Shown piece by piece: positions 20,885 through 51,514 of a stretch of DNA of 64,000 bases. Numbering within the stretch: position 1 is the first letter of the stretch; the number at the start of each line of letters is the position of its first letter. Origin of the DNA: an uncultured Myxococcales bacterium (GTDB lineage: Bacteria > Myxococcota_A > UBA9042); the NCBI GenBank assembly GCA_903929795.1, contig CAIYWC010000113.1, positions 1-64,000 on the forward strand, given 5' to 3'. The translations under genes and the position numbers were made by a program. Under the pieces are notes generated by a model. That model saw only the letters and a list, made by a program, of their open reading frames with translations, made no database searches and was not told the origin of the DNA.

Positions 20885-23090
20885 CTATTTCATCTTGACG
20901 CGCAGAACGGCCTCGCGCGTTTGCGTGGCGCCGGTGGAGAGCAAATTGCCATTATTGTCCGTGCCGGTGGAGCCGACGAGGTAGACCGAGCCCGTCACGC
21001 TGTCGACCCAGACCTTGTTCAGCGCCGTGCGCGCGCGCGTCCCCGCGGTGTTGCTGCAAGTGGTGACGTCGGCGGTGGTTGCGACGATCTTGTCCCACGT
21101 CCAGCTGGTGCCGAACGTGCCATGCATCACGAACATCGAGCGGCACGTCGTGGTGCCGGGAATGTCGACCGTGCCAGCGACCCAGCCGTCGCTGCCGGCC
21201 AGATAGACGCTGCGGACGGCGTAGTTGGTGCCCCAGGCGCTCGGCGCGGAAAGCGGCGCGGTTGGCGCCTGCGCGGTCCAGACGCCGTTGTCGAATGCAG
21301 TCAACGTGCCAGAGTCACCGCCGGCAAGCATGTGGCTGGCCGAGGTGCCGTGGATCGCGCGCAGAATGAAAGTCGGCGCGTTGATGGCGGTCTGGAAGGC
21401 CGCGGGATCGGCGCTGGTCGCGGTGTAGGCGACGCCGCCCAGGTTGGTGATGCCGCCGCACGCCGCCGTCGCGTTGCCGTTCCAGACGGCTACGCCCGTC
21501 ACGTTCTGGCCGCCGCCGACGGCTGCCGCCTGCGAGTAGGCCGTGATGTAGAACAGGTTGGACGCCGCCGCGTAAATGTCCGTGACACTGAGGGCCGCGT
21601 TGGCGCACGCGGTCGTGCTGTTGGAGATCAGCAGCGGCTTGCCAGCCGTCCAGGTCGCGCCATTGAAGGTCGCCGTTTCCAGCTGCGCCATCGCGGGTGT
21701 GCCGCCGCCGCCGGGACCGCCGCCGGTAGCCGCGGACGCGTTGCCGCCGAACAGGTAGATTTCATTGCCGGTTGCGTCGGTCGCCATGTCCACGGCGCGC
21801 AGGGCGCGGCTCAGGCCAATCAGCGTCGGACCGCCCGCGGCCCACGTCCCAGCGGCGGTGTTGAGCACAAGCGTCGACGGCGTCGTGTCGCCGCCGATGA
21901 TGTTGCCGCCGACGGTCAGCCGCCGCCGCATATCCGTGTATTCCGTATTGTTTTGCGCGGAGTTGGCCGACAGCCCTAGAGGCGACTCGACGACCGTGCG
22001 CAGCAGCCCGGCGCTCTGGCCACCGCCGCCACCGCCGCCGCCAAAGCCCTGGTCGTAGCCCGAGGTGTTGATGCTCAAGTTCGGGTAGCGGTCCACGCTG
22101 GTGAGGATACCGGTCGTCATGTTCGCGTTCAGCGCGCCGGCGTCTTCCTCGACGCCTGTGCACAAAGTGCCGGCACAGAAAGGATATTTCTGCGCGGCGG
22201 AAGCGGTCGCGCACGTCGTGCCCCACGGCTTGATGGCGCTGCTGCAGCCGGCGGTGGCGTCGCAGCTGTCGGCGGTGCACGCGATGCCGTCGTCGCACGA
22301 CTTGGAGGTCCCGGCGGTGCACGTGCCGGCCACGCAGGTCGCTGCGGGCGTGAAGATGAGCGTCGCGCAGCTGCTGGCACCGCAAACCGTGCCATCGGCT
22401 GCGGTCGTGTGCTGGCAGCCGGCGGACGCGTCGCAGCTGTCCGCGGTGCATGCGTTGTTGTCATTGCAGTTCAGCGCGCCGGTTCCGGCCTGGCACAGGC
22501 TGTTGGCGCAGACGTCGCCGGTCGTGCACGCGTTGCCGTCGTCGCACAGCGCGGCGTTGGGGGCGTGCTGGCAGCCCGCGGCGGGGTCGCAGCTGTCATT
22601 GGTGCAAACGTTGGCGTCGTTGCAGTTGGGCGCGGCGCCGCCGACGCACTTGCCGGAGACGCACGAGTCGCCGGTCGTGCATGCGCTGCCATCGTCGCAC
22701 GCGAGCGCGTTGTCGGCGAACACGCATCCCAGCGCGGGGTCGCAGCTATCGGTAGTGCACGGGTTGTTGTCGTTGCATGTCACGGCGTTCGGGCCGGTGC
22801 AGACGCTGCCGGTGCAAATGTCATTCGTCGTGCACGCGTTGCCGTCAGAGCAGACGGACGTGTTCGGCACATTCACGCAGCCCGTCGCGCTGTTGCAGCT
22901 GTCGTCGGTGCAGACGTTGCTGTCGTTGCAGGACTTGAGCGTGCCCGCGCAGGCGCCGCCCTGGCAGGTGTCGCCGGTGGTGCACGGGTTGGCGTCGTCG
23001 CACGCGGCGGTGTTGTTGGCGTGCAAGCAGCCCTGCACGTTGTTGCAGGTGTCCGTGGTGCACACGTTGGCGTCGTCGCAGGAAACCGCG
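20885..23090 (-). CDS. C-terminal part of a giant Cys-rich/propeller lipoprotein (downstream of a frameshift)
   Basis: This frame continues the Cys repeats of the gene beginning at 26171: after the shift it reads [13 protein letters not shown] in register with the repeat unit. About eight double modules follow. A transition ([14 protein letters not shown]) leads to a Gly-run linker (near 22030) and a 400-residue domain with propeller-like blades such as [28 protein letters not shown] and [12 protein letters not shown]. The protein ends [11 protein letters not shown]. The frame is open upstream to 23314, but there it no longer matches the repeat unit, so the real junction lies at the G-run 23091-23101. 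The whole gene would be about 1760 codons. Confidence 0.7.
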
Positions 23091-26000
23091 GTGGGTGGGG
23101 GTGCCGCAGACGCCCGCGGTGCAGGTCGCGCCGCCCTGCCACGCACTGCCGACGCAAGTGGTGGCGATGCACGTGGCGCCGTCGCCGAGCGCGGTGTGGA
23201 CGCACCCGCCGGTCGAGTCACAGGAATCGACCGTGCACGCGTTGCCGTCGTCGCACTTGTTGCCGGTGCCGCCGCACTTGCCGCTCGCGCAGACGTCGTT
23301 GGTCGTGCACGCATTGCCGTCGTTGCAGCCCAAGGAATTCGCGGTGTTGACGCAGCCTGTCAGCGGGTTGCAGCTGTCGTCCGTGCAGCTGTTGTTGTCG
23401 TTGCAATTGGCCGCCGTGCCGGGCTGGCAGCTGCCGCCCGCGCAGAAGTCACCGGTGGTGCACGCGTTGCCGTCGCTGCACAGCCCGGCGTTGGCGCTGG
23501 AGACGCAGCCTTTGGTCGAGTCGCAGCTGTCGGTGGTGCACGGGTTGCCGTCGTTGCAGACCAGCGCGGCGCCGCCGACGCAACCGCCGACCGAGCACGC
23601 GTCCGCCGTCGTGCACGCGTTGCCGTCGTTGCAGGGCGCGGTGTTGAAGTTGTGCACGCAACCGCCCGCGGGCGTGCAGGAATCGTCCGTACACGCGTTC
23701 TGGTCGTTGCAGTCTAGCGCCGCGCCGCCGACGCACGCGCCGCCCGAGCAGACGTCGTTGGTCGTGCAAGCGCTGCCGTCGTTGCAGCTCGCGCTGTTGT
23801 TGGTGTGGACACAACCCGCCACTGCGTCGCAGGAATCGGTCGTGCACACGTTCTGATCGTCGCAGCCAATCGCGGTCGAGCCCACGCACGCGCCGCCCGA
23901 GCACACGTCGCCGCTGGTGCACGCGTTGTTGTCATTGCAACCCAGGCTGTTGTTGGTGTGCGTGCAGCCGCCAAACGGGTCGCAAGCGTCGCTGGTGCAG
24001 ACGTTTTTGTCGTCGCAGTTGACGGTCGCGCTGCCGGTGCAGGTGCCGCCGCTGCAGGTGTCGTTTTGCGTGCACGGGTTGTTGTCGGAGCAGAGCGCGG
24101 TGTTGGGCGTGTGCGCGCAGCCGGTCGCGGGCGCGCAGCTGTCGTCCGTGCACGGGTTCGCGTCGTCGCAGCTGACCGCGGTGCCCACGCACGCGCCCGT
24201 CGCGCACGTGTCCGCGGTCGTGCACGCGTTGCCATCGTTGCAGCCGGCGGAGTTGTTGGCGTGCAGGCAGCCCTGGAGCGCGTTGCAGAGGTCGGTGGTG
24301 CAGAACTGGCTGTCGTCGCAGGACGTCGGTGTCGGTGCCGCGCCGCAGATACCGACCGCGCAGACGGCCGGGGCGGTGTAGCCATTGGCGCTGCAGCTGC
24401 CGGGGATGCAGATCGCGCCGGCGGCGGCGTTCGCGTGCGTGCATCCGCCCAGCGTGTCGCAGCTGTCGATGGTGCACGCGTTGCCGTCGTTGCAGTCCAC
24501 GCCCTGGATGACGCCGACGCAGTTGCCGTTGCCGTCGCACGTGTCGCTGACGGTACAGGCGTTCAGGTCGTCGCAGGCGTTGGTGTTGAACGTGGTGACG
24601 CAGCCCGTTTTCGCGTTGCAGTACTCGTCCGTGCACGGGTTGTTGTCGTTGCAGACGGTCAGCACGCCGGGTTCGCACACCCCGTTGGCGCAGGCGTCGT
24701 TGGTCGTGCAGATGCTGCCGTCCTCGCAGTTGGCGGCGTTGGCCTTGAACTGGCAACCGAGCGCGGTGTCGCAGGAATCGTCCGTGCACGGGTTGTTGTC
24801 GTTGCACGCGACGCTGGTGCCGCCGGAGCAGGTGCCGCCCAGGCACGCGTCCGCGGTGGTGCAAACATTGCCGTCGGTGCAGGTCGCGGCGTTGGGCGCG
24901 TGGACGCAGCCGACCGCGGGCAGGCAGCCGTCGTCGGTGCAGACGTTGGCGTCGTCGCAGTTTGTCGCGGTCCCAGCGAGCGTGCACGCGCCGTCCTGGC
25001 AGGTCGAGCCGGGGTCAAAGCTGCCGGCGCCGCAGCTGGCGGCCACGCAGACAAACCCGTTGGTCACGTTGGCGTTGACGCAGCCGGTGGTCGGGTCGCA
25101 GCTGTCGTTGGTGCAGACCTTGCCGTCGTCGCAGCTGAGCGCGGTGCCGGGCTGGCAGACGCCGTCCAGGCAGAAGTCGTTTTGCGTGCACGCGCTGCCG
25201 TCCTGGCAAAACGCGACATTGCTGGTGTGCGTGCAGCCCGCGGCGAGATCGCAGGCGTCGTCGGTGCACACGTTGCCGTCATCGCACTTGGCCTGCGCGC
25301 CGAGCACGCATTGGCCGCCGATGCAGACGCTGGGCGCGGTGAAGGCGCCGGCCTCGCAGACGCTGCCGGCGCAGACCGTGCCGGTGGCGGCCGCGGTGTG
25401 GACGCAGCCGGTGACCGCGTCACACAGGTCGACCGTGCACGGGTCCAGGTCGTCGCAGCTGGTGGACGCCGTGCCGGGCAAGCACGCGCCGCCGCCGCAC
25501 GTGTCGCCTTGCGTGCACGGGTTGCCGTCGCTGCAGGGCTTGGTGTTGTCGTTGTAGCTGCAGCCGGTGGCCAAGCTGCACGTGTCGTCGGTGCAAGGAT
25601 TTTTGTCGTCGCACGTCGGCGGCAAGCCGGTGCCGCAGACGCTGCCATGGCAGGTGTCGTTCAGCGTGCAGCCGTCGCCGTCGTCGCATGCGGTGCCGTC
25701 CAGCGGCAAGTGCGCGCAGCCCGCTTGGGGGTCGCACAAGTCGGCGGTGCACGCGTTCTTGTCTTCGCAATTCGTTGGATCGCCTGTGCATTTGCCGCTG
25801 ACGCAGTGGTCACCGGTGGTGCACGCGTTGCCGTCCGTACAGGTGCCGCTCGCGGGCAGGTGCACGCACACGCCCGCGGAGCCGCAGTTGTCGGCGGTAC
25901 ACGGGTCGCCGTCGTCGCAGCTCAAGCCGGCGCAGCTGGGCGCATCGGCGGCGGCATCGGTGGCGGCGTCCGAGCCCAAAATGTCCGCGGTCGCGTCGCT

Positions 26001-33042: not shown

Positions 33043-33095
33043 CAGCTACTTCAGCGACGCGCCGCCCGGATAGCTGTAGCTGACAAAATCCGCCC
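33043..33095. repeat. Perfect 53-bp direct repeat, copy 2 (inside the 3' end of the IgGFc-lipoprotein gene)
   Basis: The parental copy: it spans the last codons and stop of the minus-strand lipoprotein gene, with three bases beyond. Its twin lies at 32937-32989. Confidence 0.9.
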
Positions 33096-35430
33096 AGCCA
33101 TACACAAGCAGGCCCACTTTCTGCACGGATTTCAGGGTATGCGCGCCCGGCGCAACTGCGATCCGCAGGACCGACCAGCCGGGCACGAACTCCGTGAAGC
33201 CGGTTAGCGCCGCACCATCCAGCGTCGCGAGCGCGCCAGTCGGCGCCATGACATTGATATAATTGGCCTTGTAATTGCTCGGCACCAGAAAAACGTAGTC
33301 CGTCAGAAAGCGATCGACCGAGACGGACAGCGAGAAATCCGGATCGCCGATGCCGGCGTCGCCTGGCTCCGCAATGTTCGGGCAATCGGCATTCTTGCTG
33401 CACGCCCACGGGTAATCCTTGACGTTCCACGTGTACGCGCAGACTTTTTGGCCTACGGCGACACCCGTGCAGGTGTCCGAATTCGGCCCCGGCGCGAACG
33501 ACGCGGCCATGAACTGGCCGACCATCACCGGCTGGCTGGACGTGATGACAAAGTCCTGGTCGGACTCGAATTCAAACCACTGGCCCTTGTTCAGCACCGG
33601 AATGGCGCCCTGCGGCGGGTTGGTCGTCACCGTCGTGCCGTCGGTCGCCGCCAGGACGCGCCACGCGTCCTTTTCCAGCCCGCGCTTTTGCACCTTGGTC
33701 GCCAGGTAGGTCGTGCCCCAGGACGCGACGGGAAAGAGCTGCTCTTCCATGTGATCGCTGCAGCACGTCGCTGGGCAATCGGCGTTGGTCGTGCACGCCC
33801 AGCCCTGGTACTGGCACGTGCCGTTGATGCAGTGGTCGGTGTTGGGCGAGTTGGACGCCTCGGAGCCGCCAAAAACGGCGATGTCCTTGTCCGCCTTGAT
33901 CCACGTGCCTGTCATGTCGGAGCCGATCGCGTTGCTCTCCACGTTCAGCACCTCGCCTTCGGCCAGATCCACTTCCAGCGTATCGCCAGCGTTCTTGGCC
34001 GGCAGGCTGGGGCCCGCCAGCGTCGGCGCGGAAAGCAGCATCGTCACGTGCGTTTTGGCCGTCCCACCGGTGGTCGCCACGACGGTAAAATAGCTCTTGA
34101 GCGAGTCCACCGACTGCTCGCGGGTCATCACCCAGTATTCCTGGCCCAGGCCGTTGGACGGCAAAAGCAGCGACGCGTCATTGGAAAACACGCCGACGTC
34201 CTGCAGCGGATTGAACTGGTACGCGACGATCGGCTGGCTGGACTTGATGCGATAGACGTTCTTGGTGATCGCCGTGCCGTCCTGGTTGAGCGGCTTGATC
34301 TTCCACAGCGGGTCGGGAAGGTTGAGGATCTTCAGGCCGTTAGCCGCCACCGTATATTTCGACTGGTGCACAACGCCGGTCGTGTCCGTCGCGATCACCG
34401 TGACGGTCGCGGGCGCGGACTTCGTGTTGGAGACGATGACAGAGAACTGCGCGTTTTGCGCGTCGAAGAAACCGCCTTTGCCGTCGGGAATGTAGACGTT
34501 GTCGAGATCGACGGCGAAATAGTCGCAGCCGGCGTTCGTGTTGGCCTTGATGTCGCCGGAGCATGGGTCGGAGCACAAGCCGCCGACGCACGCCATGCCT
34601 TTGGCGGCGCAGTCCTCGGTAACGTCGTAGCCGGAGCCGTCGGACTTGCACTCGACCGCCGCGCCGCTGGGATCACACGACTTGGAGCCCGGGACGCACG
34701 CCATGCACGCGTTGTTCAGGCATTGCTGGCCGGACGGGCATTGGTGGACCACGGTGGTCGTGGCGCCGTCCGCGCTGCACTGCATCAGGACGTCAAAGTT
34801 GATGACCGACGGATCGGATTTGGCGCAGTACTCCTTGCCGGCATCGCAGATCCGGCAGTCGTCGTTCAGGCAAAAAGGCTTGGCGTCCGGGCACGTCTGC
34901 TCGTCAAAGCCGTTGCCGGTCGCGTTGCAGACGTCCAGGAATAGCCCGTTGCACTGCTTTTCGCCCGGCGTGCAGGAGATCGTCTTGCACTGAAAATCGA
35001 CGCATTTTTGCGGGTCGGTGCAGTTTGCGTCGAACAGGCACTGGACGCATTTGCTCAAGGCAATCGCGCAATACGGTGTGTCGGGCAGGTTGGTGCACAC
35101 GGAGTTCTTGGTGCAGGCGGGGCCGGTGTACGCGCTGCCGGTGTCAGGCGAGGCGCCGTCGCTGCCGCTGGCGATATCCCCATCCGCGGCGCCGTCCGTG
35201 CCGTCCGGCAGGCAGTTTTGCGGGTCGGCGCAGCTGTCATCGAGCACGGTGACGTCCGCGGCGGGGCTCACGTCGCCGTCCGGCAGGTCCCCGTCCGCGC
35301 CGCCGCCCTTGATGGCGTCCGCTTTCGCGTCGGGAAGCGTGAAGCCGCCGCCACCGCCGGTGTTCGCCGTACTGCTGCAGCCGAACAGGACGGCACACAG
35401 CAATAGCTCGAAAAGAAAAGCGAAACGCAT
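33046..35430 (-). CDS. IgGFc-binding-domain lipoprotein
   Basis: 794 residues. The signal MRFAFLFELLLCAVLFGC ends in a lipobox; ATG 35430 is preferred over 35436 because AGGG then lies seven bases upstream. A Gly/Asp-rich linker and a Cys-rich region (CTKNSVCTNLPDTPYC, CLNDDCRIC, CMACVPGSKSC) follow. From about 290 there is a domain like the N-terminal IgGFc-binding domain found in FCGBP and in many Myxococcota proteins: GCDYFAVDLDN, QFSVIVSNT, SSQPIVAYQFNPL, SLLLPSNGLGQEYWV, ITSSQPVMVGQFMA, DYVFLVPSNY. The role is probably adhesion or surface binding. The gene's 3' end is duplicated just downstream. Confidence 0.85.
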   Translation of the reverse strand: MRFAFLFELLLCAVLFGCSSTANTGGGGGFTLPDAKADAIKGGGADGDLPDGDVSPAADVTVLDDSCADPQNCLPDGTDGAADGDIASGSDGASPDTGSAYTGPACTKNSVCTNLPDTPYCAIALSKCVQCLFDANCTDPQKCVDFQCKTISCTPGEKQCNGLFLDVCNATGNGFDEQTCPDAKPFCLNDDCRICDAGKEYCAKSDPSVINFDVLMQCSADGATTTVVHQCPSGQQCLNNACMACVPGSKSCDPSGAAVECKSDGSGYDVTEDCAAKGMACVGGLCSDPCSGDIKANTNAGCDYFAVDLDNVYIPDGKGGFFDAQNAQFSVIVSNTKSAPATVTVIATDTTGVVHQSKYTVAANGLKILNLPDPLWKIKPLNQDGTAITKNVYRIKSSQPIVAYQFNPLQDVGVFSNDASLLLPSNGLGQEYWVMTREQSVDSLKSYFTVVATTGGTAKTHVTMLLSAPTLAGPSLPAKNAGDTLEVDLAEGEVLNVESNAIGSDMTGTWIKADKDIAVFGGSEASNSPNTDHCINGTCQYQGWACTTNADCPATCCSDHMEEQLFPVASWGTTYLATKVQKRGLEKDAWRVLAATDGTTVTTNPPQGAIPVLNKGQWFEFESDQDFVITSSQPVMVGQFMAASFAPGPNSDTCTGVAVGQKVCAYTWNVKDYPWACSKNADCPNIAEPGDAGIGDPDFSLSVSVDRFLTDYVFLVPSNYKANYINVMAPTGALATLDGAALTGFTEFVPGWSVLRIAVAPGAHTLKSVQKVGLLVYGWADFVSYSYPGGASLK

Positions 35431-35602
35431 GAACATCCCTGCCGGCCGGGGCGGTCAGACCGCGAGCCTTGAGGATAACGGCTTCCGGCCTCGGCGGCAA
35501 TCGTTGATTTTTCACGTTATTTCAGGATGTTTGGCCAGTCCGCGCAATGGCCGGGCTTGCCAGAGAACGCGCCGCGCCGTACCGTTCCTGCTTGGAGGCA
35601 CG

Positions 35603-40943: not shown

Positions 40944-42815
40944 TCAAGCGTCCATGATGGCGCGCAGCTCCGCGGTGCCGTGCAGATCGGCGTAGCCCTG
41001 GCGCAAGCCATAACAGCGGGCATTGTAAGCACATTTCCGGCACTCGTCCGACTTGACAAACTCGCCCTCGCCCATGCCCTCCGGAATCGCCGTGAGCTGC
41101 AGCTGGCTGCGGTCAAACGGCTCGGGAATCAGGCACAGCGGCAGGCCGCACATCGACTCGAAGCCCACGACGCGCACGTCCAGCGACTCCGCCAGCCGCA
41201 GCCCTTCACCCAACGCCGGCAGCATGTCGGAATACTTGGGAATCAAACGCTTTTCCTTGGGCACAAGGTCGGTCGACGGCGCGACAAAGGAGTAGTTCGC
41301 CAGCGCCCGGGGCCAACGCGCGGCGACCAGCCGGATGAAGTCCGGAAATTCGTGGAGATTCGTCTCGCAAAGCACGAAATTCAGCACGATTTCAATCGTT
41401 TCCGCATACAGATTGTCCAGACCGGCCGCTGTACGCACAAACGTGCCCGGCGTGTCCGTCACGGCATCGCACACCGCCGCCGTCGCGCCGTGCAGCGAGA
41501 CGAACGCCTGCTGCACGCCCGCCGCGACAACTGCGTGACACAGCTCAGGATTATCCAGACGCACCGCGTTGGTCTGCAGACATACCGGCTCCGCCGAAAC
41601 GGCGGCGGCAAGGCGAATCCAGTCCAGCAACCGCGCATTCAGCGTCGGCTCGCCACCGGACAGCACGATTCGGGCCCCTTGCGCACCCGCCTCGCGAATC
41701 GCCGCCTCGATCGCCGCGTCCGTTGCCGGCGGCAGATGCGTCGAGACAAAACAGAATGCGCACGCCTGGTTGCAGTGAAAATTGACGCGGATGATGGCGT
41801 CAAAGAAGGGCGTGCCATCCACCCGGGCCGACAAGCTCTGCGTCACCAGCTCGTGGGCGATCTGCTCCGGCAGCGGCCGCAGCATGTTCAGACGCCGCCG
41901 GGCTTTTTCGTCGGTGATCGGCTGAAGTTCCGGCGCGGAAAAGTGCTGCAAGTAGGCATCCGCCAAGCCCGAACAGCGATCCGCGACAATGCAAGTCGCA
42001 CACGCCGCGACGTGGCTGTGACGCTCCTGGCGCCGGCTGCCCGGCGAGAGCTTGTACAGGTGCGGCAGCCCGCGGCGCGGCGGAAAAATGCAGGGAGGCG
42101 GCCCCGAATCGGCCGCCAAGCGCAGCGGAATCGCCTCGAGCCGACAGGCCGCATCCAGCGCCTTGAGCACCTCAGCCGCCGTCTGATAATCCAGTAATTC
42201 CAAAAAATTTGGCGCATCGGTCGGCACATTCGCCTCGATCGCCACCGGCCGGCCCAGATCGCCAACCGCCGCCATCAGCGCCGCCGGCATCGCCACCACG
42301 AGCGCGTGGGTCGCCCGCGTCAGCGACGCCAGGAGTTCCACGGCGATGCCCGCCGCCAGCAGCGCGCGGATCCCGGCGATCGTGCGGGCAAAACCGCCGT
42401 CGTCCTGGGTGATCGCGTCCACGCGCGCGTCCGGCCCGACCAGATTCACCCGCGCCGAGGTCAGCCCCGCGTGCGCCAGCGCCTGCGCGCGCGCGTCGTC
42501 GATCAGCGTGGCGTTGGTCTCGAGCGACACGCGCAATGCGCCAGATTGCCGTGCAAATGCAATAAGTTCCAAGAGGTCGCGCCGCAGCGTCGGCTCGCCG
42601 CCCGTCAGGCGAATTTCTTCACAGCCGTCGCCCAGCGCTCGCCCGATCGCCGCCCGCAGCGCAGTCGGCGCGATCGCCGCCAGGTCATCGCTCTCCGCAC
42701 GGCGATTGCAGTACACGCAGTTCTGATTGCAGCGCAAATTCGTGGCAATTGTCTGCAAACGCGGCCCGCGATGCGGGCGCGACGGCGCGTTGGACAAAGA
42801 GGTCGGCGGTGGCAT
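40944..42815 (-). CDS. Protein with two radical SAM domains, each with a SPASM-like Cys tail
   Basis: 623 residues. Two complete radical SAM modules lie in tandem. The first has CNQNCVYC (Cys29, 33, 36), the GGEP motif LTGGEPTL, and a tail CATCIVADRC. The second has CNQACAFC (Cys348, 352, 355), LSGGEPTL and a tail CRKCAYNARC. Each [4Fe-4S] would cleave SAM to a 5'-deoxyadenosyl radical. Tandem full-length copies within one chain are uncommon, and peptide or cofactor maturation is typical for SPASM-like members. ATG 42815 starts cleanly; a longer form from TTG 43034 adds 73 unconvincing residues but would sit just after the preceding stop. Confidence 0.85.
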   Translation of the reverse strand: MPPPTSLSNAPSRPHRGPRLQTIATNLRCNQNCVYCNRRAESDDLAAIAPTALRAAIGRALGDGCEEIRLTGGEPTLRRDLLELIAFARQSGALRVSLETNATLIDDARAQALAHAGLTSARVNLVGPDARVDAITQDDGGFARTIAGIRALLAAGIAVELLASLTRATHALVVAMPAALMAAVGDLGRPVAIEANVPTDAPNFLELLDYQTAAEVLKALDAACRLEAIPLRLAADSGPPPCIFPPRRGLPHLYKLSPGSRRQERHSHVAACATCIVADRCSGLADAYLQHFSAPELQPITDEKARRRLNMLRPLPEQIAHELVTQSLSARVDGTPFFDAIIRVNFHCNQACAFCFVSTHLPPATDAAIEAAIREAGAQGARIVLSGGEPTLNARLLDWIRLAAAVSAEPVCLQTNAVRLDNPELCHAVVAAGVQQAFVSLHGATAAVCDAVTDTPGTFVRTAAGLDNLYAETIEIVLNFVLCETNLHEFPDFIRLVAARWPRALANYSFVAPSTDLVPKEKRLIPKYSDMLPALGEGLRLAESLDVRVVGFESMCGLPLCLIPEPFDRSQLQLTAIPEGMGEGEFVKSDECRKCAYNARCYGLRQGYADLHGTAELRAIMDA

Positions 42816-43038
42816 CGGGACGTCGCGTGGCTGCGAAGGGTTCGCCTGCCGATGATGCCTACGCCCGGCGGACGCGTCCAGCGGCGGCCGCGCGATCGCG
42901 TGCGGCAGCGGCTGCGGGCAAGCCGCTTGTTGGGTCCGAACGGGCAAGAACTGCGCAAAATGAATCCACAGGACCTGACCCGTTTGCCAAGGCGCAGCCG
43001 CGGTCTGGTGAGTCGGCGAAAACACGTCTTCCAAACGC

Positions 43039-43887
43039 TCAGGACATCAGGTGACCGGGCACGGAGATGACGTCGCCGCCCACCACCGGCCCGACGGGCA
43101 CAAACGGCGGCGCGAACGTCGGAATCGGCCCTTTGCCCATGACCAGCGAAATCTGCTGCTGCGGCAGCCACATCAGAAACACCGCGGCCAAGCCCTGCGC
43201 GATCGCATCGAACAGCTCCTTGTGGTGCAGCGCGTCGGAATCGCCCAGCGCGTCAATCATCTCCTGCTTCAGGCGCGGTGCGGTCATCTCCGCCTGCATC
43301 GCCGACGGACAGGTGATCAGCGGCACCGGCACGTTTGGCATCGGCGGCGCCGTCGGCCCCGGAAACGCCGCGAACGCCGGATACCATGGCAGCCCGGGCA
43401 CGGCGACGTTGTCCTGCCAATTCTTCCAGCATTTCGCCACCGCCGTCGCTACCGCCTTGGAATACTTGAGCTCTTGCGGCGTCGCCTTGGGCGCGCTCAT
43501 CAGGATCAGCGGCTTGATGTCCGGCCCCGACAGACAGCCGGGCGCGCCGATTGCGCTGACGGCCATGACCTGAATGCTGCCGAATTTTGCCTGCAATTTC
43601 CATAGATTGTGTGCGTTGCAGATCGCGTCGCACACGCCGTCGATGAACGCCTCGAACTTGCCGCCGATCGCGCTGACCTGGTCCACGTGGTACTTGTTGG
43701 TCGATGCGGCGACGAACAGCTTGGACGGATCCGGCGCGACGGAGCGCTCCGCCGGCTGGAACGCGTCCACGTACTGCTTGCCGGCGTCGCCCTGCGGCTG
43801 TTGCCAATCGACGGAAAGCTTGATCGCGTGCGCCTTGAACGCCGCCTTGCTGAGCTGTTTGAGCAACGCGGGCTGCATGCCGGGCAT
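43039..43887 (-). CDS. Hypothetical protein
   Basis: 282 residues with no recognised family. ATG 43887 is chosen because GGAGGT lies eight bases upstream. There is no signal peptide. Two segments stand out: KYHVDQVSAIGGKFEAFIDGVCDAICNAHNLWKL in the middle (helical; cited in parts GGKFEAFIDGV and CNAHNLWKL), and a hydrophobic Pro/Gly-rich C terminus (PTFAPPFVPVGPVVGG). It precedes the dual radical SAM gene on the same strand, so a substrate or partner relation is conceivable but not shown. Confidence 0.7.
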   Translation of the reverse strand: MPGMQPALLKQLSKAAFKAHAIKLSVDWQQPQGDAGKQYVDAFQPAERSVAPDPSKLFVAASTNKYHVDQVSAIGGKFEAFIDGVCDAICNAHNLWKLQAKFGSIQVMAVSAIGAPGCLSGPDIKPLILMSAPKATPQELKYSKAVATAVAKCWKNWQDNVAVPGLPWYPAFAAFPGPTAPPMPNVPVPLITCPSAMQAEMTAPRLKQEMIDALGDSDALHHKELFDAIAQGLAAVFLMWLPQQQISLVMGKGPIPTFAPPFVPVGPVVGGDVISVPGHLMS

Positions 43888-44052
43888 CGGTCGGACCTCC
43901 GGCTGCACAAGCTAGCGTGGCGGCGGCTGAGTCACAAGCCGCGCGGGCGGACGTGGGGCGAAAAGTCCCCGCTTGCGCCGGAGAAATGACGTGGTAGCGT
44001 CGCGCAGTTGCTGCCGGGTTGGACCGGGCGAACGCGGGACGGGAGGTCGAAG

Positions 44053-44568: not shown

Positions 44569-45408
44569 ATGACGGATTTGACAGGGAAAATTGCGCTGGT
44601 GACCGGCGCGAGTTCAGGCATCGGCAAAGAGACGGCGATCGCGCTGGCGCGGATGGGCGCGACGGTGGTATGCCTATCGCGTGATCCGGAGCGCGCGGCG
44701 GCGGAAATTCGAGCGCGTTCAGGCAGTTCCAAGATCGAGACGCTGGCGGCGGACCTGGGCACCATCGCCGGCGGCAAGCAAGCGGCGGCGGATTTCTTGG
44801 CCCGGCACGACCGGCTGCACATCCTGGTCAACAACGCGGGCGCGGCGTATGGCCAGCGCGAGCTGAACGCCGACGGACTGGAAAAGACCATTGCACTCAA
44901 CCACATGGGCTACTTCGTGCTGACGAACGCGCTTCTGGACACGCTCGAGGCGTCAGCGCCGGCGCGGATCGTCAGCGTCGCGTCGCGGGCGCACAAGGGC
45001 GCGCGGCTGGACGTGGACGATCTGGCCATGCGCAACGGCTGGGGCCAGCGACGGGTTTACGGCATTTCCAAACTCTGCAACATCCTGTTTACCAAGGAGT
45101 TGACCCGTCGACTTGCCGGCACTGGCGTCACGGCGACCTGCCTGCATCCCGGCGTCGTCGCCACCAACATCTGGGGCGCGAGCGGCAGCCTCGGCGGCAA
45201 GCTGGTCGGCCTTTTGGGCAAGCCGTTCATGGTCACGCCGGCGCAGGGCGCGGACACGATCATCTGGCTGGCGGCAAGCCCGGACGTGGCCGGTGAGAGC
45301 GGCGGCTATTACATCCGCCGCCAGCTGGCCCCGACCAGCGCAGCCGCCTCGGACAGCGCGTTGGCCGGACGCCTGTGGGCCACCAGCGCGGCGCTCGTCA
45401 AACGCTGA
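44569..45408 (+). CDS. Short-chain dehydrogenase/reductase (retinol dehydrogenase-like)
   Basis: 279 residues, a classical SDR. The cofactor motif is TGASSGIG, followed by NNAGAAYG, SVASRAHKG and the YxxxK dyad in YGISK. LHPGVVATNIWG is typical of the retinol-dehydrogenase or WW-domain oxidoreductase-like subgroup. The Arg after the second strand (SRDPE) suggests NADP. GGAGGAGAAG precedes ATG 44569. It lies 15 bases after the thioredoxin gene and upstream of the ether-lipid operon, separated from it by a promoter-like region. Confidence 0.9.
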   Translation: MTDLTGKIALVTGASSGIGKETAIALARMGATVVCLSRDPERAAAEIRARSGSSKIETLAADLGTIAGGKQAAADFLARHDRLHILVNNAGAAYGQRELNADGLEKTIALNHMGYFVLTNALLDTLEASAPARIVSVASRAHKGARLDVDDLAMRNGWGQRRVYGISKLCNILFTKELTRRLAGTGVTATCLHPGVVATNIWGASGSLGGKLVGLLGKPFMVTPAQGADTIIWLAASPDVAGESGGYYIRRQLAPTSAAASDSALAGRLWATSAALVKR

Positions 45409-45727: not shown

Positions 45728-47728
45728 ATGGCGGTCGAACGGGTGCTTGAAACAGTTGGAAAAACCGGGCTTTTCGCGCTGGCGCACACCCGCAAGTGGG
45801 TCGACGCGCTGCGCCCACAAGCGAGCACCCCGCCGCGCGCAGGCCAGACGCGCTTTGTGCCCGAGCCGCTGGCGATAGCCGCTGACGAGACCGAGAGCCC
45901 GGACATGTGGGGCTTTGCCGACACCGCTTTTGAAGCCAAGCCGAACGGCGACGTGTACTTGACGGGCACGCGCTACGAGCTGTCCAATCAGCGCCTGCCG
46001 TCGCTGCTGCCGTGGGTGCAGGGCGTGATGGGCGTGACGATCGACCCGCTGGACATCCGGACGTGGCCGGCGCCGACGGCCTTTCCGGAGCCGCACGAGA
46101 ATCCGGGTTTGCTTCGTGAAATCAAGGTTTTTCTCAAGCCGGAGCAGTGGACGCAGGACGGCGCGGAGCGCTTGCGCCACGGCCACGGCCAGACACAAGA
46201 GGAGATGTACGCGATCAAGTTTGCCAAGCTCGGGCGGATCCCGGATCTGGTGGTTTGGCCCGCGGAAGAACAGCAGGTGCTGCAGCTGGTTGCGGCTGCG
46301 AAGGCGCACGACGCCGTGCTGATTCCGTATGGCGGCGGGACAAATGTGACCGATGCGCTGCGCTGCCCTGACGGCGAACAGCGGACCATTGTTTCGGTCG
46401 ACATGCGCAAAATGAATCGGATTTTGTGGATTGACCCGGTCAACCGCATGGCGTTCATTGAGGCCGGCGCGGTCGGTCGCCACATCATCGCCAACCTCGC
46501 GCGCTATGGCTGGACCATGGGCCACGAGCCCGACAGCGTGGAATTCAGCACGATGGGCGGCTGGGTCGCGACCCACGCGTCGGGCATGAAGAAAAACCAG
46601 TACGGCAATATTGAAGACATCGTGCTGGACGTGCATGTCATTACCGCGCAAGGGAAATTGGAGCGTTCGTCGGTCGGCCCGCGTGAATCCGTGGGGATTG
46701 ATCCGCGTCTTTGGTTGTTTGGCTCGGAAGGCACGCTGGGGATTATTACTGGCGCCGTCGTCAAGCTGTTTCCGCTGCCGGAAGTGCAGAATTACGGCTC
46801 CATCTTGTTTCCGACGTTTGAGCAAGGCGTGGCATTCATGTATGAATTGGCGCACGCCGGCAATTGGCCCGCGTCCGTGCGACTGATGGACAACCTGCAG
46901 TTTCAGTTCGGCCAAGCGTTGAAGCCCGCGTCCGAGGGCTGGCACGTGCAGAAGTCAAAGCTTGAGAAGCTTTTTGTCACGCAAATCAAAGGCTTTGACC
47001 CGAACCAGATGGTCGCGTGCACGCTTGTGTTTGAAGGGGCCAAGGCGGACGTCGCGGTTCAGGAGGCGCGCGTGTACGCGATCGCGGCCAAGCACGCGGG
47101 CATGAAGGCGGGCGCGGAGAACGGCTCGCGCGGCTACCAACTGACCTACAGCATCGCCTACATCCGTGATTTCGTGATGAAACATTGGGTGCTGGCCGAG
47201 AGCTTCGAGACGAGCGTGCCTTGGTCGCAAGTGACCGCACTGTGCGACGGCGTGAAAAAGCGCGTTTGGGAGGAACATGCCAAGCGCAAGCTGCCCGGGA
47301 CCCCTTTCATCACGTGTCGCGTGACGCAGATTTACGAGACCGGCGTCTGCGTGTATTTCTATTTCGCCTTTCACTACAAGGGCGTCGAGAATCCGACCGC
47401 GGTGTACCACGAGCTGGAAAATATCGCCCGGGACGAGATCCTTGCGCAGGGCGGATCGCTTTCACACCACCATGGCGTCGGCAAGCTGCGCCAGGAATAT
47501 CTGCCGAAAATCATGAGCGACGCGGGCCTGAATTGGCGGATTCAAGCCAAGAAAGCGCTCGATCCGTCGGATATTTTCGGCTGTCACAATCAAGTGACCG
47601 CGCGGGCGACCGCAACCGAAGCAGCTGTTTTTCCTGAACATTCAAGCTCGGAAACTGCGGCACCGGCCAAGCGCTCGCGCGACCGAATCAAGACGTCTCG
47701 CATCGCCAAGACCGGAGGTGCCGCATGA
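45728..47728 (+). CDS. Alkyl-dihydroxyacetonephosphate synthase-like FAD enzyme (AGPS homologue)
   Basis: 666 residues from ATG 45728, with GGAGGGAGG upstream. The enzyme family exchanges the acyl chain of acyl-DHAP for a fatty alcohol, making the ether bond. Similarity to eukaryotic AGPS runs along the chain: PHENPGLL, RIPDLVVWP, the FAD-binding IPYGGGTNV, GHEPDSVEFSTMGGWVA, SGMKKNQYGNIEDIV, GSEGTLGIITGAVVKL, RLMDNLQFQFGQALKP, IKGFDPNQM, ESFETSVPW, CRVTQIYETGVCVYFYFAF and the HHH motif of SLSHHHGVGKLR (His580-582). Residue 283 is His (ATHASG) where human AGPS has the essential Arg419 (STRASG). The C-terminal 35 residues after HNQV are polar and extra. No peroxisomal signal is present. First gene of a three-gene operon. 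Confidence 0.92.
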   Translation: MAVERVLETVGKTGLFALAHTRKWVDALRPQASTPPRAGQTRFVPEPLAIAADETESPDMWGFADTAFEAKPNGDVYLTGTRYELSNQRLPSLLPWVQGVMGVTIDPLDIRTWPAPTAFPEPHENPGLLREIKVFLKPEQWTQDGAERLRHGHGQTQEEMYAIKFAKLGRIPDLVVWPAEEQQVLQLVAAAKAHDAVLIPYGGGTNVTDALRCPDGEQRTIVSVDMRKMNRILWIDPVNRMAFIEAGAVGRHIIANLARYGWTMGHEPDSVEFSTMGGWVATHASGMKKNQYGNIEDIVLDVHVITAQGKLERSSVGPRESVGIDPRLWLFGSEGTLGIITGAVVKLFPLPEVQNYGSILFPTFEQGVAFMYELAHAGNWPASVRLMDNLQFQFGQALKPASEGWHVQKSKLEKLFVTQIKGFDPNQMVACTLVFEGAKADVAVQEARVYAIAAKHAGMKAGAENGSRGYQLTYSIAYIRDFVMKHWVLAESFETSVPWSQVTALCDGVKKRVWEEHAKRKLPGTPFITCRVTQIYETGVCVYFYFAFHYKGVENPTAVYHELENIARDEILAQGGSLSHHHGVGKLRQEYLPKIMSDAGLNWRIQAKKALDPSDIFGCHNQVTARATATEAAVFPEHSSSETAAPAKRSRDRIKTSRIAKTGGAA

Positions 47729-50433
47729 GTGGCCTGAAAATTGCATCGCTGCACGGCGCGCACGTGCTTTTGACCGGCGCGACGGGTTTTGTCGGCAAAG
47801 TGGTGCTGGCCGAACTCGTCCGGCGGCGCGAAGAGCTGGGCTTGGCGCAGGTCCACGTGCTGGTGCGAGGCAAGAAAGACCGCACGGCCGAGCAGCGGTT
47901 CGTGACGGAAGTTGTTGAATCTCCATGCTTTCAGCTGCTTGGCGATGAGTGGCCGAACTCTTGCCAGGTCGTGCACGGCGAGCTGACGCGCGAACATTGC
48001 GACCTGGGCCGCAACGACCTGAAGCTGCTGACGACCCGCGTCACGCACATCATCCACTGCGCGGCGTCGGTGGATTTTGACCTGCCGGTCGCGGAAGCGG
48101 CGAGCTGCAACATCACGGCGGCGCTGAACGTGCTGGCGCTGGCGCAGCGCTGCGTGCGCCTCAAGCACATGGTGAGCGTTTCGACCGCGTATGTGACGCC
48201 GTGGCAGGCGGACCAGGGCCCGGTCCTGGAGCAGCTGGTGCCGCTGCCGATCTCGCCCAACGAGACCTATCAGGCGATTCTGGACGGCACGGCGGACGAG
48301 CGCGAGCTGCTGCGGGTGACTGGCCATCCGAACACATACACGCTGACGAAATGCTTGGCGGAGCACCTGCTGAGCGAGCGCCGCGGCCACGTGCCGATTT
48401 CCATTGTGCGGCCTTCTGTGGTGTCGGCGTGCCTGCAGTACCCGTTTGCGGCGTGGATCGACTCGGCGGCGGCTTTTGCCGGTTTCGTCGCGCTGATCGG
48501 CGCCGGGCACTTGCGCGTGCTGGCCGCGGATCCGGACAGCAAGCTGGACGTCGTGCCGTGCGACATCGTCGCCAAGCGGATCATCGACGCCTGTTTTCTG
48601 ACGGAAGCCGAGCGACCGATGCGCATTCGGTACGCCGTGGCCGGGTTGGCGCAAAATCCCACGACCAAACAGTCGGTTTCGGGCATCGTCCGGTATTTCC
48701 AGCGCCACTTGGTGGATCGTCGCCCGGAAGTGTCGTGGATCGGCCCGCCGTCGCGGCGTTTTGCCCTGGAAGAGCTGCGCCACCATCGGGTGCCGCTGCG
48801 GGTCGCACGCATCGGCTTGCGCGCCGTTCAGCAGCATAAAAAGCTGCGGCAGGCGACGCGCGTCGGCGAAAAACTGAAATTCCTCAATCGAGCTTTTCCG
48901 TATTTTACCCACAACTCTTTTGATTTTCATACCACAGAACCGACCGGAGACGCGCACTGGACCGTGGACGCCTACATCGAGCTGATCTGCCGCGGCGTCT
49001 ACCGCCACTTGATGAAAAAAGACGCGAGCCAGATGGTCTTTGGCGGCAAGCAGCACAAGGACAACGGCCGCGATTTGCTGTGGGTGATGCGCCAGCCGCA
49101 GGGCAATTGGGCGATTCGCATGTTCGCGCTGACGATCCGCAAGGCGCTGCGCCAGTGCACGACACAAGTCACGTTCGACCGGCCGAGCTTTGAAGCCGCC
49201 GTGCGCGCGCTGCCGCCCAATACGCTGCCGGTGCTGGTGCCGAACCACCGCAGCTATATGGATTTTTTGCTGTGTTCGTACCTGTTTTTTGATCGTCCGG
49301 ATCTCGGAATCGCGATCCCGCACATCGCCGCGGCGGAGGAATTCTCGCGTATTCCGATTTTGGGTGAATTGTTCCGACACACCCATGCGTTTTACTTGAA
49401 ACGCGGCCAGGGCAAGGCGGACGCGGCGCTGACCAAGCAGGTGCACGATCTGGTGGAACGCCGCGAGACGCTGCAGTTTTTCATCGAGGGCCAGCGCAGT
49501 CGCAGCCGGCAATTCCTCGCGCCGCGCACCGGGCTGCTGCGCTGCCTGCAGTCGACGGGCGAGCGGTTCACCATGCTGCCGATCGCGATCACGTACGACC
49601 GCGTGCCGGAGGAGGCGTCGCTCATTCGCGAGCTGACGGGCTACCAGAAGCCGGAGATGCAGTTGGCCGCGCTGCTGCGGTGGACCGCGCGGATGGTGGA
49701 CGGTCAGGTCAGCCTGGGGCGGATTCACATCGCGTGCGGGGAGCCGGTTCCGATGGAGCTGGAGAGCGACGTGCGCGAGGTGAGCCGGTCGATCATGGCC
49801 GAGCTGCAAGGCGCGACCGCGACGACGACGCACCACCTGCGGGCGTTTCTGGCGCAAAATCAGCTGGATGGCGTGGACCAAGCCTGGCTGCGCGGCGCGA
49901 TCGAGGCGCGCGGCGGCGTGGTGCTGGACAGCGCGCTGGCGGCCGAGGAAACGCTGGGCGAGGCTGAAGAGCTGTGCATGCGCCACAACTGGCAGCACTG
50001 GTTCTACGCGGACGCGGCGACGACCTGGCCCGACCACCCGGTTGTGCAGCATCATGTCGGGCAAAATGGCTTCGCTGCGGTCGAATCGTCGGCGCTGGAG
50101 ACGCTGCGCGAGCCGCGGCTTCAGGCGCTGCTGAATGCGCTGTTTGCGCCGATCGTGCGCGACTACCGCGCGGTGGCGCTCGCGCTGGGCCCGACCGAGT
50201 GGCCGCCGCGGCATGGCTCGCCGCAGACGGTGCTGTATGACGCGCCGCAGTCGTATCTGCCCTATTTGCAAGGTGCTTTTGCTGATTTGACCCAACGCGG
50301 TGTGCTGGCCTCGCATCCGCAGTGGGGGCACACGTGGGGCCACAACGCGCACGCGCTCGGGCCGTACGCGGCGGCGATTGGCGATCTGGCCGCGTCCTCC
50401 GCTCTCTGGCCGCAAAGCGCAACAGGAACCTGA
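47725..50433 (+). CDS. Fusion of fatty acyl-CoA reductase and GNPAT-like (PlsB-type) acyltransferase
   Basis: 902 residues. The N-terminal half is a fatty acyl reductase (NAD_binding_4): TGATGFVGKVVLAEL for the cofactor, HCAASVDFD, and YTLTK as the YxxxK dyad (Tyr205, Lys209). It should reduce acyl-CoA or acyl-ACP to fatty alcohol. The second half is an acyltransferase close to animal GNPAT/PlsB: VPNHRSYMDF (His508 catalytic), FFIEGQRSRSRQF (from about 585), LPIAITYDRVPEE and GRIHIACGEPVPME. It should acylate DHAP. Residues 680-902 resemble no domain I know. Its ATG overlaps the AGPS stop (ATGA), with GGAGG upstream. One protein thus supplies both substrates of the neighbouring AGPS. Confidence 0.9.
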   Translation: MSGLKIASLHGAHVLLTGATGFVGKVVLAELVRRREELGLAQVHVLVRGKKDRTAEQRFVTEVVESPCFQLLGDEWPNSCQVVHGELTREHCDLGRNDLKLLTTRVTHIIHCAASVDFDLPVAEAASCNITAALNVLALAQRCVRLKHMVSVSTAYVTPWQADQGPVLEQLVPLPISPNETYQAILDGTADERELLRVTGHPNTYTLTKCLAEHLLSERRGHVPISIVRPSVVSACLQYPFAAWIDSAAAFAGFVALIGAGHLRVLAADPDSKLDVVPCDIVAKRIIDACFLTEAERPMRIRYAVAGLAQNPTTKQSVSGIVRYFQRHLVDRRPEVSWIGPPSRRFALEELRHHRVPLRVARIGLRAVQQHKKLRQATRVGEKLKFLNRAFPYFTHNSFDFHTTEPTGDAHWTVDAYIELICRGVYRHLMKKDASQMVFGGKQHKDNGRDLLWVMRQPQGNWAIRMFALTIRKALRQCTTQVTFDRPSFEAAVRALPPNTLPVLVPNHRSYMDFLLCSYLFFDRPDLGIAIPHIAAAEEFSRIPILGELFRHTHAFYLKRGQGKADAALTKQVHDLVERRETLQFFIEGQRSRSRQFLAPRTGLLRCLQSTGERFTMLPIAITYDRVPEEASLIRELTGYQKPEMQLAALLRWTARMVDGQVSLGRIHIACGEPVPMELESDVREVSRSIMAELQGATATTTHHLRAFLAQNQLDGVDQAWLRGAIEARGGVVLDSALAAEETLGEAEELCMRHNWQHWFYADAATTWPDHPVVQHHVGQNGFAAVESSALETLREPRLQALLNALFAPIVRDYRAVALALGPTEWPPRHGSPQTVLYDAPQSYLPYLQGAFADLTQRGVLASHPQWGHTWGHNAHALGPYAAAIGDLAASSALWPQSATGT

Positions 50434-50434
50434 C

Positions 50435-51514
50435 ATGCCAGCGCTCGACGACAAGACGCCGCCGCGGCCGCACGCGCGCAAGGCGCATTCGGTGCTGGTC
50501 ACCGGCGCGACCGGCTTTTTGGGCCGCCACGTGCTGACGGCGATCCGCGCGCTGGAGCCGGACACCCACATCTGCGCTCTCGTGCGCAACCCCGCGGAAT
50601 GGCACGCGATGGACTGGACGGAAGCGCTGGGTCAGGTGGACCTGATCGAGGGCGGCGTGACCGGCGACGACGCCTGGACCCGCGATCCGCGGCTGAACGG
50701 CTTGGGCGGCATCGTGCACCTGGCGGCCGTCGTGCGCCATGCGCGCCACAATCCGCAGGACATCTACGACACCAACATCGGCGGCCTGTTGCGCATGGTG
50801 CGGCTGGCGGGCAAGCACGCGTGCCGCATCGTCTTTGTGTCCACGTCGGGGACGGTCGCTTGCTTCAATCGGCCCGATAAGTTCGCGCTGGAGGATGCGC
50901 CCTACGTCGACCAGACGGTCCGGAACTGGCCGTATTACGACAGCAAAATTCAGGCGGAGAAGCAGGCGCGGATGCTGGCGGCGGAGTTGGGCGTCAGCTT
51001 GACGGTCATGCGGCCGCCCGTGCTGCTGGGTCCGGGCGACCACAAGTTTCGCTCGACCGGCCATGTGATCAAGCACTTGCGGCGGCAATTTCCGTTTCTG
51101 ATTCATGGCGGGATGCACTTTGTCGACGTGCGGGACGTGGCGGCGGCGATCGTGCGCGCGCTGCGTCACCCCGCAGCGCGGCCGGTGTACCATCTGGGTG
51201 GGACAGCGACCTCGATCGAGGCATTTTTCCGCATGGTTCAGGACGTCTCGGGCGTGCCTGCGCCCACGCGCGTGGTCCCGCAGGCGCTGGCGTGGGCGCT
51301 CGCGGCGGCGGCACAGGCGACGGCTGAGCGCCTGCCGGGTCAGCCCAAGTCGCCGTTTCCCGACCCGGTCGTCATCGAGATGGCCAGCCACTGGTGGGCC
51401 ATCCATTCGCGCTACGCAGAGGCCGAGCTGGGCTACATTTCCCGCCCACCGTTCCAAACGCTGGCCGATACCGTGACCTGGCTGCGCGCGCACCATCCCG
51501 GGCTGCGGCCGTAG
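50435..51514 (+). CDS. Extended SDR (NAD-dependent epimerase/dehydratase-like), third gene of the ether-lipid operon
   Basis: 359 residues starting one base after the previous stop. The cofactor motif is VTGATGFLGRHVL, followed by HLAAVVRHARH, VSTSGTVAC and YDSKIQAEKQA, where YxxxK is Tyr-Asp-Ser-Lys. MRPPVLLGPGD and HFVDVRDVAAAIV follow the extended SDR pattern of 3-beta-HSD-like enzymes. Its operon position suggests reduction of the keto group of alkyl- or acyl-DHAP. That step belongs to another SDR-type reductase in eukaryotes, so the role is inference. Confidence 0.85.
   Translation: MPALDDKTPPRPHARKAHSVLVTGATGFLGRHVLTAIRALEPDTHICALVRNPAEWHAMDWTEALGQVDLIEGGVTGDDAWTRDPRLNGLGGIVHLAAVVRHARHNPQDIYDTNIGGLLRMVRLAGKHACRIVFVSTSGTVACFNRPDKFALEDAPYVDQTVRNWPYYDSKIQAEKQARMLAAELGVSLTVMRPPVLLGPGDHKFRSTGHVIKHLRRQFPFLIHGGMHFVDVRDVAAAIVRALRHPAARPVYHLGGTATSIEAFFRMVQDVSGVPAPTRVVPQALAWALAAAAQATAERLPGQPKSPFPDPVVIEMASHWWAIHSRYAEAELGYISRPPFQTLADTVTWLRAHHPGLRP

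Follow-up and report, generated by a model that had tools for sequence, protein, structure and literature searches.

An operon of AGPS, FAR-GNPAT and SDR genes, predicted to serve alkyl-ether lipid synthesis, in an uncultured Myxococcota genome with CarF and no detected ElbD

The window analyzed here is a 64,000-nucleotide stretch of a contig from an uncultured Myxococcales bacterium, and from its open reading frames three genes lie on the same strand at positions 45728-51514. The first gene (45728..47728, +, 666 aa) has an ATG start preceded by GGAGGG and encodes an AGPS-like protein, i.e. a homologue of the alkyl-DHAP synthase AGPS/ADPS. The second (47725..50433, +, 902 aa) overlaps the end of the first by 4 bp and encodes a FAR-GNPAT fusion, in which an N-terminal acyl-CoA reductase is followed by a C-terminal PlsB/GNPAT-type acyltransferase. 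The third (50435..51514, +, 359 aa) begins 1 bp past the FAR-GNPAT stop and encodes an extended, Epimerase/HpnA-like SDR. The sequence-only reading had described this arrangement with its four-base overlap and one-base gap, and all the frames were found at those positions. With AGPS, FAR-GNPAT and SDR genes on one strand, joined by overlaps or short gaps, the locus has the layout of the MXAN_1676-1674 operon, and the recurrence of this gene order in relatives and in distant phyla is far beyond chance. An unrelated classical SDR gene at 44569-45408, sitting 320 bp upstream, was considered as a fourth member and ruled out, as it is kept only within the genus.

Each of the three assignments agrees with Pfam, NCBIfam and PDB searches. 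The AGPS-like protein consists of FAD_binding_4 and FAD-oxidase_C domains according to Pfam. In the PDB search it was aligned over 570 residues with 4bby, the alkyl-DHAP synthase of mammalian peroxisomes (E 1e-170), and it also matched 2uuu, the ADPS of Dictyostelium (E 7e-92). The guinea-pig residues H300, T309, R419, R515, Y578 and H615-617, which we take to be the catalytic positions of ADPS, correspond to H266, T275, R385, R480, Y543 and H580-582 of the window protein, all of them invariant across an alignment of ten homologues. The PDB chains 4bc7 and 4bca are altered at R419 and Y578, and this confirms the numbering. The protein combines the domains, the full-length likeness to a solved ADPS and the catalytic residues of this family, and it is predicted to exchange the acyl group for an alkyl group on DHAP. 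A survey with a loose cut-off found AGPS homologues across many phyla (PMC11868695), and therefore AGPS alone is no marker of the operon.

In the FAR-GNPAT fusion, Pfam places NAD_binding_4 at residues 16-286 (E 4e-58) and Acyltransferase at residues 502-622 (E 4e-21), so that a reductase and an HX4D acyltransferase share a single frame. The reductase part has the Rossmann motif TGATGFVGK17 and the YxxxK motif at 205-209 (YTLTK; Y205, K209), while the acyltransferase part has the HX4D motif with H508 and D513 (HRSYMDF) and EGQRSRS588; these motifs are invariant or nearly so across ten homologues, and their catalytic positions do not vary at all. Fusions of this kind are known from Dictyostelium (FARAT, PMC7375469) and Tetrahymena (ART1, PMC3143110), where the FAR is likewise N-terminal, the DHAP acyltransferase C-terminal and the use in ether lipids, but both are eukaryotic and the Dictyostelium protein is peroxisomal (SKL signal). 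The fusion by itself is thus no novelty either.

The acceptor of the acyltransferase domain has to be considered here, as the domain scores with PlsB models and PlsY (PF02660) was not found in the source genome or in 19 relatives of its class, operon-less ones included. One could then suppose that, PlsY being absent, the domain in truth acylates glycerol-3-phosphate on the way to ordinary ester lipids and that the FAR makes wax alcohols. We regard this as very improbable. Relatives without the operon (G001, G005, G006, G008 and G012) have no detected PlsY either, and so some other acyltransferase must acylate G3P for the housekeeping ester lipids. Moreover, the gene is closely linked to AGPS, and its motifs HRSYMDF and EGQRSRS differ from the HRSHMDY and EGGRSRT of the aligned GPAT chain. 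The motifs lean to GNPAT, that is, to DHAP over G3P as the predicted acceptor, and the fusion probably works for ether synthesis alone.

The third protein has an Epimerase domain (Pfam, E 8e-29), and its Ser-Tyr-Lys residues S136, Y167 and K171 are invariant in the homologue alignment. Its AlphaFold model (pLDDT 90) has a generic extended-SDR fold, and the nearest solved folds are gox2253, cinnamoyl-CoA reductases and also cinnamyl-alcohol dehydrogenase 2. These neighbours are generic extended SDRs, and neither the fold nor the sequence points to a particular substrate. A more specific relation was found with ElbE, whose gene lies beside that of ElbD in Myxococcus (34% identity, E 1e-44). In M. 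xanthus, inactivation of elbE lowers the ether lipids and elbD gives no rescue (PMC9131029). On balance we favour a role of the SDR as the reductase that finishes alkyl-G3P from alkyl-DHAP. The SDR could instead be a fatty-aldehyde reductase that completes the conversion of acyl-CoA to alcohol, with alkyl-DHAP reduced by another enzyme and the operon and its first two enzymes read as before. Certain bacterial FARs go no further than the aldehyde, cinnamoyl-CoA reductases and cinnamyl-alcohol dehydrogenase 2 are among the closest solved folds, and the unrelated classical SDR upstream of the operon may be counted on the same side. However, FAR1-type reductases normally proceed to the alcohol, the upstream gene is confined to the genus, and the operon SDR is kept in the cassette across phyla, as expected for a step that completes the product. 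The aldehyde role is therefore held to be unlikely, and alkyl-DHAP reduction is the reading carried forward.

The neighbourhoods of AGPS homologues in Myxococcota, which had been proposed for checking, bear out the three-gene unit. In the family of the window genome (f1), the order AGPS, FAR-GNPAT, SDR is kept in every genome with a long enough contig. Of 282 Myxococcota genomes, 31 were found to carry AGPS and 30 to carry FAR-GNPAT, with 27 genomes common to both. A scan of named genomes also located the fusion in Myxococcota, Sericytochromatia, Gemmatimonadota, Gammaproteobacteria (Woeseiaceae), Acidimicrobiia, Thermoleophilia, Nitrospira and others; most of these genomes are MAGs, so single taxon labels carry a binning risk. 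AGPS lies upstream in 41 of the 48 fused loci of named genomes, and six of the remaining seven are cut by a contig end. An SDR follows directly in 33 of the 41 fused loci with at least 900 bp downstream, and the other 8 are without it. All-against-all clustering revealed no other neighbours conserved beyond close relatives. The pairwise distances of the three proteins co-vary (r 0.88, 0.77 and 0.84), and in a Mantel test none of 2000 permutations reached the observed r. The three genes thus co-evolve, and the unit that they form is met again in other phyla. In one Nitrospira sp. MAG (L097:9950-13519), the single case seen, FAR, acyltransferase and SDR form one ORF of 1189 codons directly behind AGPS.

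The AGPS tree puts the Myxococcus operon with Longimicrobiaceae and spirochaete sequences; the window falls among other uncultured Myxococcota and, less tightly, with Sericytochromatia, the deep forks being weakly supported. The Myxococcus and window lineages are not side by side, and their separate placement suggests that the unit may have passed between phyla. The guinea-pig and Dictyostelium AGPS sequences sit on long branches and their placement is not trusted. A record titled Comamonas sp. KCTC 72670 (L106, L179; 9.0 Mb) has two operon copies, AGPS that groups with Myxococcus, CarF and a long ElbD-like FAR ORF. It behaves like a myxobacterium, and its organism name is probably wrong.

The compact arrangement, which the sequence-only reading did not recognise, has in fact been published. 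The M. xanthus operon MXAN_1676-1675-1674 consists of AGPS, a FAR-GNPAT fusion and an SDR of the NAD-dependent epimerase/dehydratase type (PMC9131029), and it had been suggested for ether lipids earlier, by Curtis 2006 (PMC9131029). Hence the gene arrangement is known and not new, and it is the genomic context that is informative here. For direct comparison we used Myxococcus genomes reached via the family of G282, as M. xanthus by name was not recovered by peptide patterns in the genome collection. The Myxococcus identity of the comparison genome rests on two proteins. The encapsulin of G317 shares 285 of its 287 residues with the solved EncA of M. xanthus (4pt2), and a CarF of 281 aa has twelve histidines, among them the published 113 and 218. 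The operon of these genomes (G305, G317) is orthologous and has the same three genes in identical order with about 55, 43 and 43% identity to those of the window, and the FAR-GNPAT at the Myxococcus loci L176 and L177 is of identical architecture.

In addition to the operon, Myxococcus has ElbD, through which most of the flux passes. Myxococcus ElbD is a protein of 1474 aa with FAR, AMP-binding, carrier and acyltransferase domains. Like the window fusion it joins a FAR to an acyltransferase, but AMP-binding and carrier-protein domains lie between the two, whereas Pfam finds only FAR and acyltransferase in the window fusion. The ElbD operon also has no AGPS gene, unlike that of the window. Disruption of MXAN_1676 lowers ether lipids only slightly in M. 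xanthus (PMC9131029), because ElbD dominates there; the role of the operon is hard to judge in this organism since ElbD masks it. The lowering itself speaks for an ether-lipid role of the operon, its small share next to ElbD in M. xanthus against it.

In the source genome, a 94% complete MAG, and in 44 relatives, no ElbD match was found at E 1e-100 except in G012, a family member with CarF and without the operon; none was detected in the operon-bearing relatives tested. The source genome contains no long FAR ORF besides that of the operon, and its second-best match to the FAR domain is an SDR of 351 aa. Since no ElbD was found, this organism probably has no alkyl-ether route of the same type besides the operon, as distinct from other bacterial ether routes such as Ger/PlsA and as far as a search for ElbD in a 94% complete MAG can tell.

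Outside the window and unlinked to the operon, the source genome encodes a CarF/PEDS1-type desaturase (contig C195, 63059-63775, i.e. L159:5060-5776, +, 238 aa) with 50% identity to Myxococcus CarF. It belongs to PF10520 and has all nine essential histidines, including the equivalent of H113, a residue that the plant homologues lack and that separates PEDS1 from them; its histidines lie at 67, 92, 93, 102 (H113), 153, 157, 172, 179, 180, 183 and 184. No solved structure of a CarF relative was found. Within the family, CarF is present in 15 of the 17 genomes with the operon (not detected in G004 and G009) and in two of the five without it, an association that carries little weight on its own (Fisher p 0.055, kinship uncorrected). 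In G005, CarF is present with neither operon nor ElbD. Among surveyed cultured myxobacteria, CarF-type desaturases were almost confined to Cystobacterineae (PMC9304148). In our sample PF10520 occurs in 77 of the 282 Myxococcota genomes, which is wider than reported for cultured strains.

The presence of CarF also bears on what the operon makes. Its main product might be something other than membrane plasmalogen, either a specialised alkyl lipid like the M. xanthus homospermidine lipids or alkyl-diacylglycerol for storage. MXAN_1675/1676 are said to take part also in homospermidine lipid formation (PMC9548883), and in Dictyostelium FARAT supplies the synthesis of MDG, a storage lipid (PMC7375469). 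On the other hand, CarF acts on plasmanyl-ethanolamine lipids and accompanies the operon in all but two of the 17 family members that bear it, and we consider a specialised or storage product improbable.

When these lines are taken together, the operon very probably serves the committed steps by which alkyl-ether glycerolipids are made along the DHAP route of the animal, peroxisomal type. This reading has good support from homology and from the conservation of catalytic residues. The same evidence, with the conservation of the operon, backs the enzyme assignments of the sequence-only reading, and CarF elsewhere in the genome adds to the case for the chemistry it predicted, namely formation of fatty alcohol, acyl-DHAP, alkyl-DHAP and perhaps alkyl-G3P. 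The activities of all the operon enzymes and the lipids made are deduced from sequence. The FAR domain would make fatty alcohol by reduction of fatty acyl-CoA (or acyl-ACP), and the GNPAT domain would acylate DHAP to acyl-DHAP. AGPS would then swap the acyl group for the fatty alcohol to give alkyl-DHAP, whose ketone would most likely be reduced by the SDR to alkyl-G3P. Ordinary phospholipid enzymes would carry alkyl-G3P to a plasmanyl lipid, from which the unlinked CarF/PEDS1-type desaturase would form plasmalogen. This predicted order is that of mammalian FAR1, GNPAT, AGPS, PexRAP/DHRS7B and PEDS1/TMEM189. The likeness extends to the 570 residues aligned between the mammalian and window AGPS and to the histidines of CarF that are required in TMEM189, but the mammalian pathway uses separate genes and compartments. 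Mammalian PexRAP is a classical SDR, and its place is presumably taken by the extended SDR in the window genome.

The way from fatty acid to alkyl lipid in myxobacteria has been described as largely uncharacterised (PMC9131029). The present analysis adds the recurrence of the unit across phyla, the kinship of its SDR with ElbE, and the operon together with CarF without a detected ElbD. With the desaturase present and ElbD, the usual alternative in bacteria, not found, the three-gene unit may be the sole route in the organism. Such a CarF-bearing lineage with no detected ElbD is a clean system in which to study a pathway hidden by ElbD in M. xanthus, and both the sufficiency of the three genes for alkyl ethers and the role of the SDR as alkyl-DHAP reductase become testable in it. 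It also extends the reported range of CarF-type desaturases past the Cystobacterineae of the cultured-strain survey (PMC9304148). Taken further, a horizontally spread, self-contained alkyl-G3P cassette could be the sole source of CarF/PEDS1 substrate in uncultured ElbD-less Myxococcota, which would then possess, outside Cystobacterineae, a full aerobic pathway to plasmalogens like that of animals; we see the chances for and against this as evenly balanced.

Other genes of the window were noted in passing. A protein of 696 aa with two tandem radical SAM domains (40944-43034, -) is conserved in the genus, and adjoining it is a protein of 289 aa with no Pfam match (43039-43908) that shows 93-95% identity within the genus. 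Two large proteins (20885-23314, -, and 33046-35436, -) contain Dictyostelium CTDC repeats and an IgGFc-binding domain.
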